Assembly (NCBI RefSeq): GCF_030369635.1
Contig: NZ_CP128474.1
Span: 2,976,001 to 3,040,000 of the forward strand
Length of the DNA: 64,000 nt
Direction: 5' to 3'
From: Microbacterium arborescens
GTDB taxonomy: Bacteria; Actinomycetota; Actinomycetes; Actinomycetales; Microbacteriaceae
The notes below the pieces were generated by a model. The model was not told the origin of the DNA. It ran no database searches and worked only from the letters and a program-made list of their open reading frames with translations. Shown piece after piece: positions 29,684 through 38,822 of this stretch; position 1 is the stretch's first letter, and each line of letters begins with the position of its first letter. A program made the translations under genes and the position numbers.

Positions 29684-31174
29684 TCACTCGGCGAGTGCCT
29701 CCACGGGCGAGACGCGGGTCGCGAGACGGGTGGGCACGACGGCGGCCACGAGGGTGAGCACGGCGGTGGCCACGACGATCCCGGCGACGGTGAGCCACGG
29801 GATGCCCGGAAGCACGAAGGTGGGGGCGAGCCACAGCGGCGGCACCCGCACCGACCCGAGCAGCGACTGCGCCGCCGCCCAGCCGTAGGCGATGCCGAGA
29901 AGCAGGCCGAACACGACCGAGGTGATCGTGATGTGCGCCGCCTCGAACAGCACCATCGAGCGGATCTGACGTCCGGTCAGGCCGAGGGCGCGCAGCAGCC
30001 CGAGCTCGCGGGTGCGCTGGACCACGCCGATCGTGAGCAGGTTGACGAGACCGACGGCCGCGATCACCGCCGACACCCCGACGAGAGCCATCATGACCGC
30101 GCTGAACGTGTCGAGCAGACGGGCCATCTCGCCCGACACCTCGCCACCGCCCGAGGCGGCCATGACGCCCTTGACCGACTCCGAGGCGACGGCGAACATC
30201 GTCACGAGCGTGACGCCCATGACGACGCCGATCGCCATGCGGCTCGATCGCTCCGGGTAGCGCAGCGCGTTCTCGGCTGCGAGCCGCGCCGACGCCGAAC
30301 GGCCGAAGAGCCGACCGGTCAGTCGGAGCAGCGGCGGCATGACGAGTGCGGCGCCCAGGCTCAGTCCGGTGAACGAGGCGAGACCTCCGAAGAACGCGAC
30401 GACCACGCCGAGGGGTGTGGTGAAGCCGGCGAGGATGCCGAGAGCGAGCAGCACCGCGCCGACGCCGAACAACGACACCGCGGCGACGCGGCGGCGCGTA
30501 CGGCCCGCGGCCTCTTCCGCCGTGCGCGGCGCGGACCCCGCGAGGGCAGCGAGGGGCGTGACCTCGAGCACGCGACGCGACCCGGACCACGCGGCGATCC
30601 AGGTCGTCAGCGCTACGACGAATGCCGGCGCCAGCAGCACGGGCTGCACGACGTTGTAGTCGACGTCGAGCCCCCACGCCCGTGCGGCGATCTGCTGGAG
30701 ACCGAGCGCTCCGGCGGTTCCGCCGACCAGCCCGAGCACGGCGCCGATCGCGCCGACGACGAGGCCCTGCCGCGCGATCCGCGACCGCTGCGACCGCGCC
30801 GACGCGCCGATGAGGCGCATCAGGGCGATCTGACGGGTGCGACCCGCCACGATCGTGGCGAACGTGTTGGCCGTGACGATCGCGGCGACGTACATCGCCA
30901 CCGCGACCAGCAGCACGCTGAGGATCGCCACGACGATGACGATGGTCTCTCCACCCGAGAGGAACGGGTCGGCCATGAGCCACGCGCCGATCAGCCCGGT
31001 GACGGCGACCAGCAGCACGCCGAATCCGCCCGAGATCGCGGCGACGAGCACCGAGGCGCCCATCCCCCGCTCGCGCAGCCACGCCCAACGTCCGGAGGCC
31101 GGGGCCGCCGAACCCGACCCGGGCCGCATCCGCGCCGACGAGGATGCCGCGCGCGCCGCGGTCACGGCGGTCAT
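29684..31174 (-). CDS. FtsX/MacB-type ABC transporter permease
   Basis: The 496-residue protein contains two FtsX-like modules: helices at about residues 42-65, 75-100, 130-160 and 175-195, then a second set after residue 235 with an outer loop near 330-350, and three helices at the C-terminus. Motifs such as GRTRQIALMRLIGAS and QRTRELGLLRALGLTGRQIRSMV are the cytoplasmic helices seen in LolC/MacB/BceB-like exporters, and it ends with the usual SPVEALAE. Start ATG overlaps the ATPase stop (ATGA). With the ATPase it forms a mechanotransmission-type ABC system for envelope stress, lipid or antibiotic handling. It lacks a long outer domain, so it is not a typical MacB. Confidence 0.88.
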   Translation of the reverse strand: MTAVTAARAASSSARMRPGSGSAAPASGRWAWLRERGMGASVLVAAISGGFGVLLVAVTGLIGAWLMADPFLSGGETIVIVVAILSVLLVAVAMYVAAIVTANTFATIVAGRTRQIALMRLIGASARSQRSRIARQGLVVGAIGAVLGLVGGTAGALGLQQIAARAWGLDVDYNVVQPVLLAPAFVVALTTWIAAWSGSRRVLEVTPLAALAGSAPRTAEEAAGRTRRRVAAVSLFGVGAVLLALGILAGFTTPLGVVVAFFGGLASFTGLSLGAALVMPPLLRLTGRLFGRSASARLAAENALRYPERSSRMAIGVVMGVTLVTMFAVASESVKGVMAASGGGEVSGEMARLLDTFSAVMMALVGVSAVIAAVGLVNLLTIGVVQRTRELGLLRALGLTGRQIRSMVLFEAAHITITSVVFGLLLGIAYGWAAAQSLLGSVRVPPLWLAPTFVLPGIPWLTVAGIVVATAVLTLVAAVVPTRLATRVSPVEALAE

Positions 31175-31932
31175 GCCGACACCTCGGCGGCGAGCATGTG
31201 GGCCGAGATCTGCTCGGCGCTCTGGCTGGGCTTGTCGGCCACGATGCGGCCGTCGCCGAGGAAGATCACCCGATCGGCGTGCGAAGCGGCGACGGGGTCG
31301 TGCGTCACCATCGCGATGGACTGACCGTGCTCGCGGCTCGCCGTCGCGAGCAGGGCGAGCACCTCACGACCCGACCGCGAGTCGAGGTTGCCGGTCGGCT
31401 CGTCGGCGAAGACGAGGTCGGGCGCCGTCGCGAGGGCACGGGCGATCGCGACGCGCTGCTGCTGGCCACCCGACAGCTCATGCGGACGGTGCCGCAGCCG
31501 CGCGCCGAGCCCGAGGGAATCGACCAGCCCGTCGATGCGCGAACGTTCGAGGGCCGACGGCGACCGCCCGTCGAGCTCGAACGGCAGCGTGATGTTGCCG
31601 ATGACGTCGAGGGTGGGCACGAGATTGAACGACTGGAACACGAAGCCGACGCGGCGCCGCCGCAGGATCGTCAGATCGAGGTCGGAGAGGCCCGAGATCT
31701 CGGTGTCGCCGATCCACGCGCGACCCGTTGTCGGGGCGTCGAGCCCGGCCATGATGTGCATCAGGGTCGATTTGCCCGAGCCGGATGGGCCCATGATGGC
31801 GGTGAACTCGCCACGGCGGATGCCCACCGAGACGCCGTCGAGCGCACGGACGCCCGATTCGCCGGCGCCGTAGGTCTTGGAGAGGTTCTGGACCCGGGCG
31901 GCGAGGCCGAGGTCGGTGGTCGAGATCTGCAT
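31171..31932 (-). CDS. ABC transporter ATP-binding protein (MacB/LolD type)
   Basis: The 253-residue ATPase has Walker [10 protein letters not shown] (residues 48-56), signature LSGGQQQR, Walker [14 protein letters not shown] and the D-loop. The TGNLDSRSG sequence is the mark of LolD/MacB/FtsE ATPases. The start is placed at 31932 because TAGCGT (31940-31945) ends 7 bases before this ATG, the leaderless pattern common here; ATGs 12 and 27 codons further upstream would put the promoter inside the coding region. It pairs with the coupled FtsX-type permease and lies downstream of a two-component system on the same strand, from which it is separated by a hairpin and its own promoter. Confidence 0.9.
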
Positions 31933-31939
31933 GTCTCCG

Positions 31940-31986
31940 ACGCTACGAAGCGTCGCGTCCGCCGACATCGGTCCACCGTCGCGGAC
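31940..31986 (-). promoter_or_regulatory. Leaderless promoter with inverted repeat, possible response-regulator site
   Basis: TAGCGT (31940-31945) serves the ABC ATPase. GTCCGC (31957-31962) and GCGGAC (31981-31986) form an inverted repeat flanking the -35 region. The neighbouring NarL-type regulator would be an obvious candidate to bind it. Confidence 0.4.
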
Positions 31987-31997
31987 ACGTACATCTT

Positions 31998-32017
31998 GCG
32001 GATGATCCCTCATCCGC
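31998..32017 (-). terminator. Hairpin after response-regulator gene
   Basis: GCGGATGA (31998-32005) pairs perfectly with TCATCCGC (32010-32017) around a TCCC tetraloop, 10 bases past the response-regulator stop. It likely ends or attenuates the kinase-regulator transcript before the ABC transporter promoter. Confidence 0.55.
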
Positions 32018-32026
32018 CCGCGAGGG

Positions 32027-32683
32027 TCAGGCGAGCCCGTGCTCGAACGCGAAGACGACCAGCTGCACGCGATCGCGCAGGGAGAGCTTCGCCAGGATCC
32101 GGCTGATGTGGGTCTTCACGGTGGCCTCGGAGAGGAACTCGCGCTGTGCGATCTCGGCGTTGGAGAGCCCCCGGGCCGCTAGAGCGAAGATCTCCCGCTC
32201 ACGGTCGGTCAGCTCGGCGAACGCGGCCGGCACGGCCTTCTGCGCGGGGGCCGAGAACGTCGCGAACAGTTCCCGCGTCGCCGCGGCCGCGATGACCGAC
32301 GACCCCGAATGCACCGTGCGGATCGCGGCGAGGAGGAACTCGGGGTCGGCGTCCTTGAGCAAGAACCCGCTCGCGCCCTGACGGATCGCCCGCGCCGCCG
32401 CCTCGTCGAGGTCGAAGGTGGTCAGCATCACGATGCGCGGCGGAGCGCCATCGAAGACCGGATCGTCGAGCAGCTGAGCGGTCGCGGTCAGGCCGTCCAT
32501 CACCGGCATCCGGATATCCATGAGAACGACGTCGGGACGTGTCTCGCGGATGATGCCGATCGCCTCTGCGCCGTCCGACGCCTCGCCGACGACCTCGAGA
32601 TCGGGCTGTGAGGCGACCACCATGCGGATGCCGGCGCGGAAGAGCGCCTGGTCGTCGACGAGGACGACCCGGATCGCACTCAC
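32027..32683 (-). CDS. NarL/LuxR-family response regulator
   Basis: The 218-residue regulator has a receiver domain (acidic pocket DD at residues 10-11, phosphorylation site D56 in VVLMDIRMP, conserved T near 88 and K near 108) and a C-terminal LuxR-type helix-turn-helix (TDREREIFALAARGLSNAEIA, then ATVKTHISRIL). It is the partner of the preceding histidine kinase, whose stop overlaps its ATG by 4 bases. Position next to an FtsX-type ABC transporter suggests that this system controls the transporter, as in envelope-stress or cell-wall-antibiotic sensing modules; the signal is unknown. Confidence 0.93.
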   Translation of the reverse strand: MSAIRVVLVDDQALFRAGIRMVVASQPDLEVVGEASDGAEAIGIIRETRPDVVLMDIRMPVMDGLTATAQLLDDPVFDGAPPRIVMLTTFDLDEAAARAIRQGASGFLLKDADPEFLLAAIRTVHSGSSVIAAAATRELFATFSAPAQKAVPAAFAELTDREREIFALAARGLSNAEIAQREFLSEATVKTHISRILAKLSLRDRVQLVVFAFEHGLA

Positions 32684-33876
32684 GCGGTGCCGCCGATGGG
32701 CAGGGTCGCCGCCACGACGAATGCGCCGTCGCGGGGGCCCACTTCGATGGTGCCGCCGATGAGCTGAGCGCGTTCGCGCATGCCGATGAGGCCGTGACCG
32801 CCCGTGCGCACCGGGCCCGTGACCTCACTCACCGGCGAGAGCGGGTTGCTCACACGGACCTCCACGCGGTCGGACAGCCAGGACAGGGACACCTCCACGG
32901 TACCGCCCGCGCCGTGCCGCATCGCGTTCGTCAAGGCTTCCTGCAGAATCCGGTACACCGCGATCTGCACCGCCGCGGGCGGCTCGCCCGGCGGTGCGGG
33001 GTCGACGTCGACGCGCAGGTCGAGACCGGCAGCGCGCACCTGCGCGTAGAGCACCTCCAGCTCCGCGACGGTCGGCTGGGGACCCTCGCCCTCACTGTGG
33101 CGCAGCTGGGTCAGCAGCATCCGCACGTCCGAGAGGGCGGAACGGGCCGTCGACGAGATCGTCTGAAGCGAGGTGGCAGCGGCATCCGGATCCGCCGCCG
33201 CGGCATAGCGAGCCCCGTCGGCCTGGGCGATGACGACCGCGAGCGAATGGGCGACGACGTCGTGCATGTCGCGCGCGATGCGGTTGCGCTCGAACTCCGC
33301 CGTCGCGCGTTCCTCGGCCTTCCGCTGGGCCTCGGCATTGCCGCGGGCACGCAGCCCGACGCGGACGAGTGCGCCCACGGTCCACGCCAGGAGCAGGCCG
33401 AAGACGGCCGCGACGAAGAGCATCGTGCCGGTGACGAGGAAGTACACCAGCTCATCACCCGCTGTCGTGACCGAGTACGCCGCAGTCGGGATGAGCAGGT
33501 AGATGGTGATGGCCAGCGCGCCCCCGATGGAGGACGCGAATCCGAGCCAGAAGATCCGGTTCGTGCCGTACGCCGCGCAGGTGTAGAGCACCGCGAAGAT
33601 GGCGATGTCGACCGGCAGGGGAGGCAGCTGCGCCAGCATCTGCAGGATCGCACCGACCCACGCCAGCGTCAGCGCGAGCGGCGGCGAGAGGCGACGCAGC
33701 GCGACCGCAGCGCCGAACGGGACGACCAGAAGCATCGCGACGACCGCTGACACCCGGTCGTTGGGGATGCCGACACCCACGACGCCCACCCACGTGAACA
33801 GCAGCATGAGCGCCGCGAAGGCGACAGCCACCGAGATGTCGACGGAGAGCTGATAGCGGCGGAGCGGACGGAACAC
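32680..33876 (-). CDS. Sensor histidine kinase (HisKA_3 type)
   Basis: The 398-residue kinase has about six membrane helices in the first 170 residues with short loops and no large outer sensor domain. A dimerisation domain follows with the phospho-acceptor His205 in ERNRIARDMHDVVAHSL, and an ATPase domain with LQEALTNAMRHG (N box) and GGHGLIGMRERA (G box). This is the NarX/DesK-like class that pairs with NarL-type regulators. The GTG start lies 6 bases after TACCGT (33883-33888), so it appears leaderless. Small-loop kinases of this kind commonly sense membrane or cell-wall perturbation, often through an adjacent ABC transporter. Confidence 0.92.
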   Translation of the reverse strand: MFRPLRRYQLSVDISVAVAFAALMLLFTWVGVVGVGIPNDRVSAVVAMLLVVPFGAAVALRRLSPPLALTLAWVGAILQMLAQLPPLPVDIAIFAVLYTCAAYGTNRIFWLGFASSIGGALAITIYLLIPTAAYSVTTAGDELVYFLVTGTMLFVAAVFGLLLAWTVGALVRVGLRARGNAEAQRKAEERATAEFERNRIARDMHDVVAHSLAVVIAQADGARYAAAADPDAAATSLQTISSTARSALSDVRMLLTQLRHSEGEGPQPTVAELEVLYAQVRAAGLDLRVDVDPAPPGEPPAAVQIAVYRILQEALTNAMRHGAGGTVEVSLSWLSDRVEVRVSNPLSPVSEVTGPVRTGGHGLIGMRERAQLIGGTIEVGPRDGAFVVAATLPIGGTA

Positions 33877-35136: not shown

Positions 35137-35622
35137 GTGATGCGGTCCAATGATCTCCTGAGCATCGGCGAGGTGAGTGCTCGAACCGGTGTGTCCGTGT
35201 CGGCGCTGCACTTCTACGAGCGGCACGGGCTCATCACCTCGACTCGCTCGGCGGGCAATCAGCGCCGGTTCAGTCGCCACATGCTGCGGCGCATCTCCCT
35301 CATCCTCGTCGCGAAGCGCCTCGGCATCCCGCTCGCCGAGGTCGCCGACGCCTTCGCTTCTCTCCCCGCCGAGGCCGAGCCCAGCAGTGATGACTGGAAA
35401 CGGGTGTCGCGGGCGTGGAAGATCCGCCTCGAGGAACGGCGCGCGGCCATCGAGTCGCTCGAACGCGAGCTCGTGGGATGCATCGGATGCGGCTGTCTCT
35501 CGATGCGGTCGTGCGATCTGCTGAACCCCGGTGACGCGCTGAGCGCGGAGGGCAGCGGACCGCGTCGTGTCGCGCCCGCGCTCCGGCACGTGCTCGACGA
35601 CGACGCGGCCGCTCCGTCATGA
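35137..35622 (+). CDS. soxR: Redox-sensing transcriptional regulator SoxR
   Basis: The 161-residue MerR-family protein has an N-terminal winged HTH (IGEVSARTGVSVSALHFYERHGLI), a dimerisation helix, and the four cysteines of the [2Fe-2S] cluster, C115, C118, C120 and C126, spaced C-x2-C-x-C-x5-C exactly as in SoxR. SoxR is activated when redox-cycling compounds oxidise the cluster. A GTG at 35137 directly precedes the ATG; TAGAGT (35124-35129) is 7 bases from the GTG, so a leaderless start there is likely. The gene is convergent with a split transketolase and shares its last six bases with it. A canonical SoxR box sits in the transketolase promoter. Confidence 0.95.
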   Translation: MMRSNDLLSIGEVSARTGVSVSALHFYERHGLITSTRSAGNQRRFSRHMLRRISLILVAKRLGIPLAEVADAFASLPAEAEPSSDDWKRVSRAWKIRLEERRAAIESLERELVGCIGCGCLSMRSCDLLNPGDALSAEGSGPRRVAPALRHVLDDDAAAPS

Positions 35623-36489
35623 GAGCCGGTCGAGGCGCCGCCTGATCCCCGACGCATCGAGGCCGTGCAGCCGCGCGTGGTCGGACGCAGTGCCGTATCG
35701 GCGCTGCTCTCCCACCCCGACACCGATGTGCTCGATGCGGATGCCGCTGCCGCCGACGGCCGCGCCGACCGCGGCGGCGGTCGTTCCCTCGAGGAAGGGT
35801 TCGAGCACCACGACCCGGTCGAACCCGGCGCTCAGCTCGCGCAGACCGTCACGGTCGAGCGGCACCGGCGTCGCGGTGTAGGCGACCGCGTGCCCCGTGC
35901 CGGCCGTCGCTTCGAGCGCGGCGTCGAGCAGTGGGCCGATGGCCAGCACGAGGACACCCGATCCCCCGCGCACGGGGTGGATCCGCCCGTCGGTCGGGAA
36001 GGCCGTCCGGTTCTCCTGCGTCGAGAGCCGGATGTACTGACGGTCGTCGGAGGTGGCCGCCGCCCGGATCAGCGCCTCGACCTCGTCGGGATGCCCCGGC
36101 GTGTGCAGCCGCCACCCCGGCAGAGTGCCGAGCAGGGCGATGTCGCCGGGGCACTGGTGCGTGCGCCCTTCGGCTGCGGCGTCGTAGCTCGCACCGATCG
36201 ATACGAGCACCGCCCCGAGATCCTGGTGCGACAGATCGAGCTTGATCTGCTCGAAGGGCCGCTCGACGAGGAACGGGGCGTAGGTGTGCACGAACGGGCG
36301 GAGCCCGGCGAGCGAGAGCCCGGCCGCGACGCCGATCATCGCCTGCTCGCGGATCCCGACGTTGACGACGCGGTCGGCGGCGGCGGTGCCCGCGGCGAGA
36401 TCGATCGGCCCGATGTCGGCGAGGACGAGAGCCGCACGTTCGTCGGTCGCCAGCAGATCGGACATCGTGGTGGAGAAGCGCGCGCGCAT
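35617..36489 (-). CDS. Transketolase, C-terminal subunit (split form)
   Basis: The 290-residue protein covers the pyrimidine-binding and C-terminal domains of a transketolase: LVLADIG, RVVNVGIREQAMIGVAAGLSLAG (with the catalytic Glu of REQ), the HTYAPFL loop and a final Rossmann-like domain. It is the partner of the upstream N-terminal half, whose stop overlaps its ATG by one base (TGATG), so the two halves are made in equal amounts. It is probably a C-P5/transketolase-like heteromer transferring two-carbon units with thiamine diphosphate. Its final Ser-stop codons lie in the palindrome TCATGA, which is also the Ser-stop of soxR on the other strand. Confidence 0.9.
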   Translation of the reverse strand: MRARFSTTMSDLLATDERAALVLADIGPIDLAAGTAAADRVVNVGIREQAMIGVAAGLSLAGLRPFVHTYAPFLVERPFEQIKLDLSHQDLGAVLVSIGASYDAAAEGRTHQCPGDIALLGTLPGWRLHTPGHPDEVEALIRAAATSDDRQYIRLSTQENRTAFPTDGRIHPVRGGSGVLVLAIGPLLDAALEATAGTGHAVAYTATPVPLDRDGLRELSAGFDRVVVLEPFLEGTTAAAVGAAVGGSGIRIEHIGVGVGEQRRYGTASDHARLHGLDASGIRRRLDRLS

Positions 36490-37184
36490 CAGGATCCCTT
36501 CGCAGCGGTATGGACGACGGTGACGCGCGGCATCGCGCCGCCCGCCTCGAGGGCCGCGGCGAGCGCGGCGTGATCGCGTGAGTCGACCTCGGCGGCATCC
36601 CACCCCTCCACCGCGAACCGCCGCGCGACCCCGCCGGGCCATCCGAGGGATGCCGAGGCGTTGTCGATGACGATGCAGTGCAGCCGCGCGAGAGCGAGGC
36701 GTCCGGCGACGGCGATCGCCTCGTGGTTGCTGCCCTCGTCGAGCTCGGCGTCGCCGATCAGGACGAACACGCGTCCGCCCGCACCCGCGATGTCGAGGCC
36801 GCGGGCGAGGCCGACCGCGATCGGCAGACCGTGCCCGAGCGAGCCGGACGAGATCTCCACGGCGGGAATGAGCACGCGGTCGGGATGGTGGCCGAGGGGC
36901 GAGTCGACGCCCGCCAGGTCATCGAGCCATGCGTCGGGCACCAGGCCCCGGGCAGCGAGCACGGCGTAGTACGAGGCGGGACCGTGGCCTTTCGACAGCA
37001 GGAAGCGGTCGCCGGCCTCGGGGCGCAGCACCCGATCGTGCAGCACCCAGAGGGCGTCGAGGGTCGAGTGCGCCGCGGCGCTGTGCTTCTCGTCGCCGGT
37101 CACTCGTGCGAGGCGGTCGAGCACGGCGGCGGGCAGCCGCTCGGTGAAGGAGTCGACGTGGGGGTCGGGGTCGGTTCGGATCAT
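36489..37184 (-). CDS. Transketolase, N-terminal (TPP-binding) subunit
   Basis: The 231-residue protein is the diphosphate-binding half of a split transketolase. It contains HSAAAHSTLDALWVLHD, the LSKGHGPASYYAVLA segment with catalytic His residues, LGHGLPIAVGLARG, and GDAELDEGSNHEA with the following N that binds the Mg-TPP. The usual GDG triplet is GDA here, a small deviation. It lies in front of and is coupled to the C-terminal half. The ATG lies 7 bases after TAGCGT, in a promoter with a SoxR box, which suggests the enzyme is induced by redox-active drugs, perhaps to increase pentose-phosphate flux and NADPH; this is inference. Confidence 0.9.
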   Translation of the reverse strand: MIRTDPDPHVDSFTERLPAAVLDRLARVTGDEKHSAAAHSTLDALWVLHDRVLRPEAGDRFLLSKGHGPASYYAVLAARGLVPDAWLDDLAGVDSPLGHHPDRVLIPAVEISSGSLGHGLPIAVGLARGLDIAGAGGRVFVLIGDAELDEGSNHEAIAVAGRLALARLHCIVIDNASASLGWPGGVARRFAVEGWDAAEVDSRDHAALAAALEAGGAMPRVTVVHTAAKGS

Positions 37185-37191
37185 GTCTCGA

Positions 37192-37222
37192 ACGCTAAAA
37201 CCTCAAGCTCGATTGAGGTCAA
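37192..37222 (-). promoter_or_regulatory. SoxR-type promoter with SoxR box in a 19-bp spacer
   Basis: On the minus strand TTGACC (37217-37222) and TAGCGT (37192-37197) are separated by 19 bases, the over-long spacing typical of MerR-family-controlled promoters. The palindrome CCTCAATCGAGCTTGAGG (37201-37218) is 18 bases long and matches the SoxR box form CCTCAAG-N4-CTTGAGG with one arm mismatch (CTTGAGG becomes ATTGAGG when read on the plus strand). The predicted start is one base before the ATG. A soxR gene is 1.6 kb away. Confidence 0.85.
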
Positions 37223-37334: not shown

Positions 37335-38822
37335 ATGTCCATCGCACAGACGCACCCCACCCCCGGTGCCGCCAAGACGATCATCGGCGAGCCCGAGGTC
37401 GTCGAGGACGGCGGCGCGGTCGACGCCCTGAGCATCGCGCTCGCCGACGGCGTCGAGCACGACCCGGCGTGGATCGCGCTGCGCGACGCCGCGACGGCGC
37501 TGCACGAGCTGCAGGCCGCCGACGGCTCCGTGCCCGACGCGGACGACCACGAGACGGCACGCCGCCACGTCGCGGCGATCACCGACGCGATCGGCCGACT
37601 CGCCCCGAGGTTCCCTCACGATGCCGACTACCTGGCGGCGTCGATCCGGGACTTCGACAGATGGGCGGGGTCCGATCATCCGGACGGCGCGGCTTCGACG
37701 GAGGGGGCATTCGGCGTGCCCGATTTCCTCGACTCGCTCGTGGCCTTCCAGCCGCAGCTCCACCGCGTCGACGGCATCCGCCACCTCGTCGTCTTCCCGA
37801 TGTACACGCAGAACGGATCGCGGAACCGTCATGTCGAGGCGCTCCTGGTCGAGACGATCTGGCCCGAGGCGATCGCGCGACTCGAGACGATGTACCCCAA
37901 CCGGCTCTTCGTCTCGTTGCGACTGCTCGACTTCACGCCCGGATACGACACCGACTCGGCCGTGCTGTTCCCCGAGACCGTCGCCATGCGCGAGATCCCG
38001 CCGTTCACGTGGGGGGCGATCTTCCAGGACCGCGAGGCGGCCCGCTATCGCCGCGTCGTGCGTGCCGCGTCCGAGATCACGAAGCTCGACCTGCCCGCCG
38101 AGGCGGCGGAGATGCTCGACGACCAGGCGCTCACCGAACGGGCGTTCGTGATGTGGGACCTCATCCACGACCGCACCCACATGCGCGGCGATCTGCCCTT
38201 CGACCCGTTCATGATCAAACAGCGGATGCCGTTCTTCCTGTACTCCCTCGAAGAGCTGAGATGCGATCTGACGGCGTTCCGCGAATGCGTCGCGCTCGAC
38301 CGGCGGCTGAGCGCCGAGACGGATCTCGACCCGGTCGACGCCGAGCTGCTGCGTCTGTCGCGGCTCGTGCAGTACGCCGTGATCTTCGACCGGATCTTCC
38401 GGTTCGCGATCACCGGATCGCGCGTGCGCAACTACGACGGGCTCGGCGGTCAGCTGCTGTTCGCCTGGCTGCACCGTCGCGGCGTGCTGCACTGGACCGA
38501 CACCGCACTCGCCTTCGAATGGAGTGAGGTGCCGGATGCCGTCGTCGCCCTGGGCGATGCGATCGACCGGCTCTACTGGGAGTCGATCGACCGGCCGAAG
38601 ACCGCGCACTGGCTGGCGGCGTACGACCTCGTGCGCTCGGTCCTCGAACCGCATCCCGCGTCGGTGTGGGCGCGCGGCCTGCCCGACGACGTCCTCGCGG
38701 GCCCGCCGAAGGGGTACACCGATGCCGTGCTGGACGACGAGTTCCCGCTGTCGATGTTCTACGAGGCGCTCGAGAAGAAGATGCGCGACGTGATCGCCTC
38801 CACCCGCGGCATCCGCGGCTGA
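37335..38822 (+). CDS. DUF6421 family protein
   Basis: This 495-residue soluble protein matches the actinobacterial DUF6421 family, recognised by long conserved stretches such as DGIRHLVVFPMYTQNGS (near residue 155), FTPGYDTDSAVLFPET, DLIHDRTHMRGDLPFDPF near 280 and RNYDGLGGQLLFAWLH near 370. The histidines in DLIHDRTH suggest a metal-dependent function, but none has been established to my knowledge. Start ATG has GGAGG 8 bases upstream. A TAGGCT hexamer at 37269-37274 could be its -10, giving a short leader. It is divergent from the SoxR-box promoter, so effects of SoxR on this gene should be considered. Confidence 0.85.
   Translation: MSIAQTHPTPGAAKTIIGEPEVVEDGGAVDALSIALADGVEHDPAWIALRDAATALHELQAADGSVPDADDHETARRHVAAITDAIGRLAPRFPHDADYLAASIRDFDRWAGSDHPDGAASTEGAFGVPDFLDSLVAFQPQLHRVDGIRHLVVFPMYTQNGSRNRHVEALLVETIWPEAIARLETMYPNRLFVSLRLLDFTPGYDTDSAVLFPETVAMREIPPFTWGAIFQDREAARYRRVVRAASEITKLDLPAEAAEMLDDQALTERAFVMWDLIHDRTHMRGDLPFDPFMIKQRMPFFLYSLEELRCDLTAFRECVALDRRLSAETDLDPVDAELLRLSRLVQYAVIFDRIFRFAITGSRVRNYDGLGGQLLFAWLHRRGVLHWTDTALAFEWSEVPDAVVALGDAIDRLYWESIDRPKTAHWLAAYDLVRSVLEPHPASVWARGLPDDVLAGPPKGYTDAVLDDEFPLSMFYEALEKKMRDVIASTRGIRG

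Follow-up and report, generated by a model that had tools for sequence, protein, structure and literature searches.

SoxR control of tktN, the first gene of a split transketolase pair in Microbacterium arborescens, is strongly supported by sequence evidence, and the encoded enzyme is of the type of Rif15, whose published acceptor is the naphthoquinone rifamycin S (PMC6002545). The analysis covers a 64,000-nucleotide stretch of the genome, here called the window, which holds tktN, tktC and soxR (Table 1). The tktN stop and the tktC start share one base (TGATG), and soxR is convergent with tktC, their gene ends overlapping by 6 bp.

Table 1. Features of the tktN-tktC-soxR region, in window coordinates
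Feature	Position	Strand	Basis
tktN, 231-aa N-terminal (ThDP-binding) subunit, Rif15-type	36489..37184	minus	Pfam PF00456 (Transketolase_N)
tktC, 290-aa C-terminal (pyrimidine-binding) subunit	35617..36489	minus	Pfam PF02779 (Transket_pyr)
soxR, 160 aa, C-x2-C-x-C-x5-C motif	35140..35622	plus	TIGR01950, start ATG 35140
-35 hexamer TTGACC of the tktN promoter	37217..37222	minus	direct sequence reading
-10 hexamer TAGCGT	37192..37197	minus	direct sequence reading
Predicted SoxR operator, 18-bp palindrome CCTCAATCGAGCTTGAGG	37201..37218	minus	sequence, genome-wide scan, conservation
DUF6421-family gene, divergent from tktN	37335-38822		783 bits

A predicted SoxR operator in the tktN promoter

SoxR, like other MerR-family regulators, activates promoters with an over-long spacer, the DNA being distorted when its [2Fe-2S] cluster is oxidised. 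In the tktN promoter the -35 and -10 hexamers are 19 nt apart (37216-37198, minus strand), and 7 nt, TCGAGAC, lie between the -10 hexamer and the tktN ATG at 37184 on the same strand. The promoter had been predicted earlier as TTGACC, a 19-base spacer and TAGCGT on the minus strand, which is correct to the base. The accompanying claim of an 18-bp SoxR box with CCTCAA/TTGAGG arms in SoxR-type promoter geometry is borne out, as the arms match at 12/12 bases, the spacer is over-long and the palindrome reaches the -35 hexamer. Its placement in the spacer stands in part: most of the palindrome lies inside the 19 nt, but it begins with the CC that closes the -35 hexamer and so extends partly outside.

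The pattern CCTCAAN6TTGAGG occurs once in the window with 0 mismatches; at up to 3 mismatches there are 8 occurrences versus 11.3 expected by chance, which is noise. Genome-wide, one match is obtained at up to 1 mismatch, and the reversed control pattern also gives one. The longer pattern TTGACCTCAAN6TTGAGGT, at up to 3 mismatches, finds the tktN promoter only (control, 0). Among 299 genomes of the host family, 60 contain an exact CCTCAAN6TTGAGG, versus 18, a count made by eye, that match the reversed control. Because the control also matches in those 18 genomes, the exact pattern alone is no proof, and the case for a SoxR site is carried by position and conservation.

Conservation of the operator and promoter

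A tktN scan of named genomes confirmed at least 445 relatives. The 80 best were retained and comprise two other Microbacterium, three Chloroflexota metagenome-assembled genomes (MAGs; one titled Dehalococcoidia) and 75 Streptomyces loci. The palindrome was scored in 178 nt around the start of the tktN match. It is present upstream of tktN, with at least 10/12 arm bases, in 76 of these best 80 of at least 445 loci; the chance level for such a score is 15/14,910 random windows drawn from the same loci. The remaining four (L067, L103, L106 and L117) keep the TTGA with diverged arms. By direct reading, TTGA precedes the palindrome in 80/80 loci (best 80 of at least 445), with L133 showing CTTGACTTCAAG. 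The promoter consensus over the best 80 of the at least 445 relatives is TTGACCTCAAG-N4-CTTGAGG-TTGCACGAT-N7-ATGAC. Occurrence of the box at the same site in close relatives, named as a check in the original prediction, is seen in both Microbacterium loci, L061 with 12/12 and L062 with 11/12 arm bases.

The enzyme also recurs in a family designated f7, which is probably Micromonosporaceae because the protein nearest to the G502 query that carries a name is from Micromonospora sp. NBC_00421 (95%). Matches at E ≤ 1e-45 were found in 183 of 250 f7 genomes, and 50 loci were compared, the 30 best and 20 hand-picked lower-ranked ones, including two Rif15 copies (L166 and L167). In 45 of the 48 non-rif loci the operator has at least 5/7 paired positions, with L192, L194 and L204 falling short; at L211 the counted site is off the promoter and a full operator lies elsewhere in the locus. 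The f7 arms are mostly GTTGAAG/CTTCAAC or GTTCAAG/CTTGAAC. Since the start codon lies 6-7 nt past the -10 in most related loci (63 of the best 80 of at least 445, and 43/48 in f7), the tktN transcript is predicted to be leaderless, which its sequence makes probable.

The divergent DUF6421-family gene was considered as the SoxR target and rejected. The -35/-10 arrangement fits the minus strand only; the four bases ahead of the palindrome on the plus strand are AAAA. Moreover, the gene adjoins tktN in just the two other Microbacterium among the best 80 of at least 445 relatives.

SoxR and its linkage to the enzyme

The soxR product scores 184.9 bits against TIGR01950 (cut-off 116.9) and 151 bits against Escherichia coli SoxR (2zhg), and all four cluster cysteines are present (CIGCGCLSMRSC). 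An intact soxR 1.6 kb away had been reported in the original prediction; the gene is 1.58 kb from the operator, with a complete motif and a score above the model cut-off. The genome yields six matches to the SoxR model at E ≤ 0.001, of which the product of the window's soxR alone scores above the cut-off and the other five fall short of it.

A soxR with the cysteine motif adjoins the pair in nine of the best 80 of at least 445 loci: both Microbacterium, five Streptomyces and two Chloroflexota, where L116 and L117 are the MAGs with SoxR beside the enzyme. At L071 just the C-terminal half of SoxR is in frame, and in the Microbacteriaceae genome G049 SoxR is also beside the enzyme. The linkage is nearly complete in f7, where 47 of the 48 non-rif loci carry the same two genes beside a divergently oriented soxR that has the four-cysteine motif.

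SoxR scores above the cut-off in 7/7 genomes with a SoxR-linked enzyme and in 0/6 with a deeper, unlinked relative, four of these six genomes being under 90% complete. SoxR is also found in three of five same-genus genomes (G106, G164, G215, G258 and G296) that lack a close tktN/tktC copy (best E 7e-24), and therefore its presence alone says little; the absence of a close copy from all five marks the locus as accessory in the genus. Short split transketolases of a deeper group (L157-L161), from elsewhere in the phylum, have no box, and their genomes have no SoxR above the cut-off.

The operator arms appear to vary with the regulator. Among 64 loci with soxR, classified by an H or R residue in SoxR (4 loci are without the residue motif), 7/7 H-type proteins pair with CCTCAA arms versus 2/53 R-type proteins, counts that are uncorrected for kinship; the SoxR of the window is H-type. 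This pairing suggests direct recognition of the operator by SoxR. Across L168-L215, the f7 operators drift to GTTGAAG/CTTCAAC, apparently in step with the replacement of H by R in the helix-turn-helix region of SoxR, and this drift constitutes a natural specificity series.

Other SoxR-type promoters of the family and window neighbours

In G058, a Microbacteriaceae genome, an Fe/Mn superoxide dismutase gene (Pfam Sod_Fe; L051 867-1463) is directly preceded by an exact SoxR box with TTGA and TTTTAGCGT. The same locus holds soxR, and this is a different SoxR target within the family. Further Microbacteriaceae SoxR-box promoters (L033, L040-L042, L046, L052, L053 and L055-L060) lie ahead of flavin reductases, MFS transporters, a ferredoxin-like gene and soxR itself; six of these targets were scanned and the others grouped by BLAST or by eye. 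Elsewhere in the window, 32027-33876 and 29684-32013 encode a LuxR-type response regulator and a histidine kinase, beside genes that by eye look like ABC transporter genes.

The encoded enzyme and the housekeeping transketolase

The best PDB sequence matches of the split pair are 6yak and 6yaj (95.5 and 80.5 bits), the split transketolase of Carboxydothermus hydrogenoformans. That enzyme is likewise two-chained, but its N-chain has 309 residues versus the 231 of tktN, of which residues 56-175 alone align. A PHROGs search with both subunits gave no match.

The C-terminal KGxG..WH segment, which in transketolase structures contributes the active-site histidine (His263 in yeast) close to ThDP and the donor, is missing from tktN. 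It is present in 27 of 28 classical split N-subunits (the exception is L030) versus 0/95 short ones (92 distinct). Its loss could open a channel for a bulky acceptor.

These features bear on the possibility that SoxR induces a spare, ordinary transketolase, which would raise non-oxidative pentose-phosphate flux or replace a superoxide-damaged housekeeping enzyme. There are precedents in E. coli, in which superoxide damages transketolase and resistant isozymes are swapped in under SoxRS. In keeping with such a role, the ThDP motifs are conserved in both tktN and tktC, and the donors of Rif15 include pentose-phosphate intermediates (PMC6002545). However, the genome already encodes a separate, full-length transketolase (765 bits, G000 C1:1302849-1304873), and the split genes reach 55.8 and 24.1 bits against the canonical bacterial model TIGR00232, far under its cut-off of 682.25. 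The distribution of the KGxG..WH segment also sets short N-subunits apart from classical ones, and Rif15, the nearest characterised relative, uses a quinone. An ordinary transketolase is thus unlikely, and the separate enzyme, the low TIGR00232 scores and the missing segment likewise disfavour the earlier suggestion of pentose-phosphate flux for NADPH.

Kinship with Rif15

To place the enzyme relative to Rif15, we used the Rif15 copies of two genomes, G502 and G829. In G502, tktN and tktC share their region with five ORFs of 1,807-5,260 aa, of which two were searched and are both type I polyketide synthases, the other three being judged by eye. The region also encodes a NAT-type protein (amide synthase), a ROK-type kinase, an AHBA synthase scoring 766 bits against 1b9h, a type II dehydroquinase and a LuxR-type regulator, and a methyltransferase gene stands directly ahead of tktN. 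These genes mark the region as a rifamycin-type cluster, in which the position of the transketolase identifies it as Rif15. Relatives recorded as Amycolatopsis share 75-81% identity with the G502 N-subunit. G829 has the same order of LuxR, methyltransferase, tktN and tktC, at 80-90% identity.

The tktN product shares 63% identity with G502 Rif15a, and tktC scores 282 bits against its Rif15b counterpart. Over both subunits, identity to Rif15 is 54%, versus 28-33% to three classical split transketolases. Rif15a/Rif15b and the window pair are alike in having two subunit genes, a short N-subunit without KGxG..WH and the ThDP motifs. This kinship lends support to the unusual substrate that the original prediction had raised as its other option.

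In trees, Rif15 and the SoxR-linked enzymes form one group on a separate branch from the classical split transketolases. With 99, 85 and 101 taxa, Rif15 always falls among the SoxR-linked enzymes, although its neighbours differ. Placement of Rif15 outside the SoxR-linked set was not rejected with 85 taxa (AU p = 0.084, fast search) and was rejected with 101 taxa (AU p = 0.0023; L156 unconstrained), a tree whose deep nodes are weak (44-55). The larger set includes 16 loci from other families, obtained in a class-wide scan with the Rif15 N-subunit in which 17 of 394 genomes, G502 included, reached E ≤ 1e-85. All 16 have TTGA and an 18-bp box-like sequence just before the ATG, with at least 5/7 pairs in 14/16 and a divergent soxR in 8/16. 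Ten of these loci are together sister to Rif15 (support 88; 100 with L227). Because it is nested in the SoxR-linked set and an outside placement is rejected, Rif15 would most simply descend from a SoxR-controlled enzyme.

Neither Rif15 copy (L166, L167) has a SoxR box or soxR at its locus, and the window genes differ from these cluster copies in standing under a predicted SoxR promoter. Both rif genomes also hold a separate SoxR-linked copy (L155 and L212). A second Rif15-type pair without a SoxR box occurs in G645 (L156 6234-7922), in a stretch that also has a luciferase-like monooxygenase gene; the other copy in G645 is boxed.

The retention of a SoxR-linked copy in both rif genomes, beside cluster copies without box and soxR, speaks against a biosynthetic role for the window enzyme, in which it would decorate an endogenous quinone product and SoxR would tie its expression to this product, not to detoxification. 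Rif15 is itself biosynthetic (PMC6002545), and Streptomyces coelicolor SoxR responds to the endogenous quinone actinorhodin (PMC4146615), both of which are consistent with such a role. A third operon gene that would name a pathway was sought and rejected: beyond tktN and tktC, no neighbour cluster recurs in more than 43 of the best 80 of at least 445 loci, as judged by recurrence. Taken with the rif copies, this makes a biosynthetic role distinctly unlikely.

Another MerR-family protein binding the palindrome, with SoxR a bystander, is very improbable: five further matches to the SoxR model and the arm drift in f7 would allow for it, but those matches fall below the cut-off that the window's soxR alone passes, and the kinship-uncorrected pairing of SoxR types with operator arms points to SoxR.

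A proposed route from SoxR to quinones

The preferred reading is that redox-cycling compounds oxidise SoxR, which switches on the enzyme, and that quinones are then capped or reduced at the expense of ketose phosphates; we regard this as more probable than not. Rif15 transfers a C2 ketol unit from fructose-6-phosphate, xylulose-5-phosphate, ribulose-5-phosphate, sedoheptulose-7-phosphate or dihydroxyacetone to rifamycin S, yielding the re-aromatised ester rifamycin L, which its authors state may hydrolyse to the hydroquinone (PMC6002545). Taken with the response of S. coelicolor SoxR to actinorhodin (PMC4146615), this chemistry suggests that a SoxR-induced, Rif15-type enzyme would most simply be quinone-capping or quinone-reducing, and by analogy we infer a quinone as the substrate of TktNC.

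In the uninduced state, SoxR would sit on the 19-bp spacer and the leaderless tktNC mRNA would barely be made. By the SoxR/MerR mechanism, oxidation of the [2Fe-2S] cluster by a redox-cycling compound would lead SoxR to distort the DNA and turn the promoter on. The two subunits would assemble a Rif15-type ThDP enzyme that takes a C2 ketol from xylulose-5-phosphate, fructose-6-phosphate or sedoheptulose-7-phosphate. This unit would attack the quinone carbonyl, a step in print for Rif15 with rifamycin S, and re-aromatisation would give a hydroquinone glycolate ester, incapable of redox cycling until hydrolysed. Ketose phosphates would thus pay for the capping or two-electron reduction of quinones.

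Several points count against quinone capping. The substrate is deduced from a relative that is 54% identical. Rif15 turns over slowly (kcat 0.022 per min), with a large ansamycin as its known acceptor (PMC6002545). For the Salinispora counterpart, a role as a sugar transketolase in making AHBA has been discussed (PMC4551226).

Relation to known SoxR targets

Strictly, a transketolase is not the new kind of SoxR target that the original prediction took it for: Streptomyces avermitilis SAV_1623, a putative transketolase, was listed with a conserved SoxR site in 2014 (PMC4146615, Table 4 footnote). It shares with tktN both the transketolase identity and a SoxR site in the promoter region, which for SAV_1623 is a prediction given in that footnote. 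SAV_1623 likely belongs to the Rif15-type subfamily. The same source reports a potential SoxR box upstream of ~13% of Streptomyces soxR genes, and describes S. coelicolor SoxR as driving redox enzymes and a transporter. The window resembles the SoxR regulons of S. coelicolor and Pseudomonas aeruginosa, in which SoxR activates a few genes for handling redox-active quinones or phenazines. It differs in that the only site found in its genome would drive a ThDP carboligase, unlike the oxidoreductases, monooxygenases and transporters described in PMC4146615.

Among the matches listed from the open-licence literature, PMC4146615 alone connects SoxR with a transketolase, and there is no follow-up of SAV_1623; the term "split transketolase" is absent from the open-licence literature searched. 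The SoxR-transketolase target is thus known as a prediction, and the link to Rif15 and the divergent soxR module are unreported among those matches.

Implications

How SoxR functions beyond the enteric bacteria is still under study. The present data delineate a module of two to three genes that is conserved across several actinobacterial families and in some Chloroflexota, and the proposed route would link SoxR to a type of enzyme whose quinone chemistry has been demonstrated. We tentatively suggest, at somewhat less than even likelihood, that the module is a widespread SoxR-controlled defence, often with soxR adjoining, in which central sugar phosphates are spent through ThDP chemistry on capping or reducing toxic quinones, and that Rif15 was recruited from such a defence enzyme and lost its SoxR control. 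This would explain the origin of the odd rifamycin transketolase. If true, ketose phosphates, and not NAD(P)H, would stop quinone redox cycling, which would be a new detoxification reaction.
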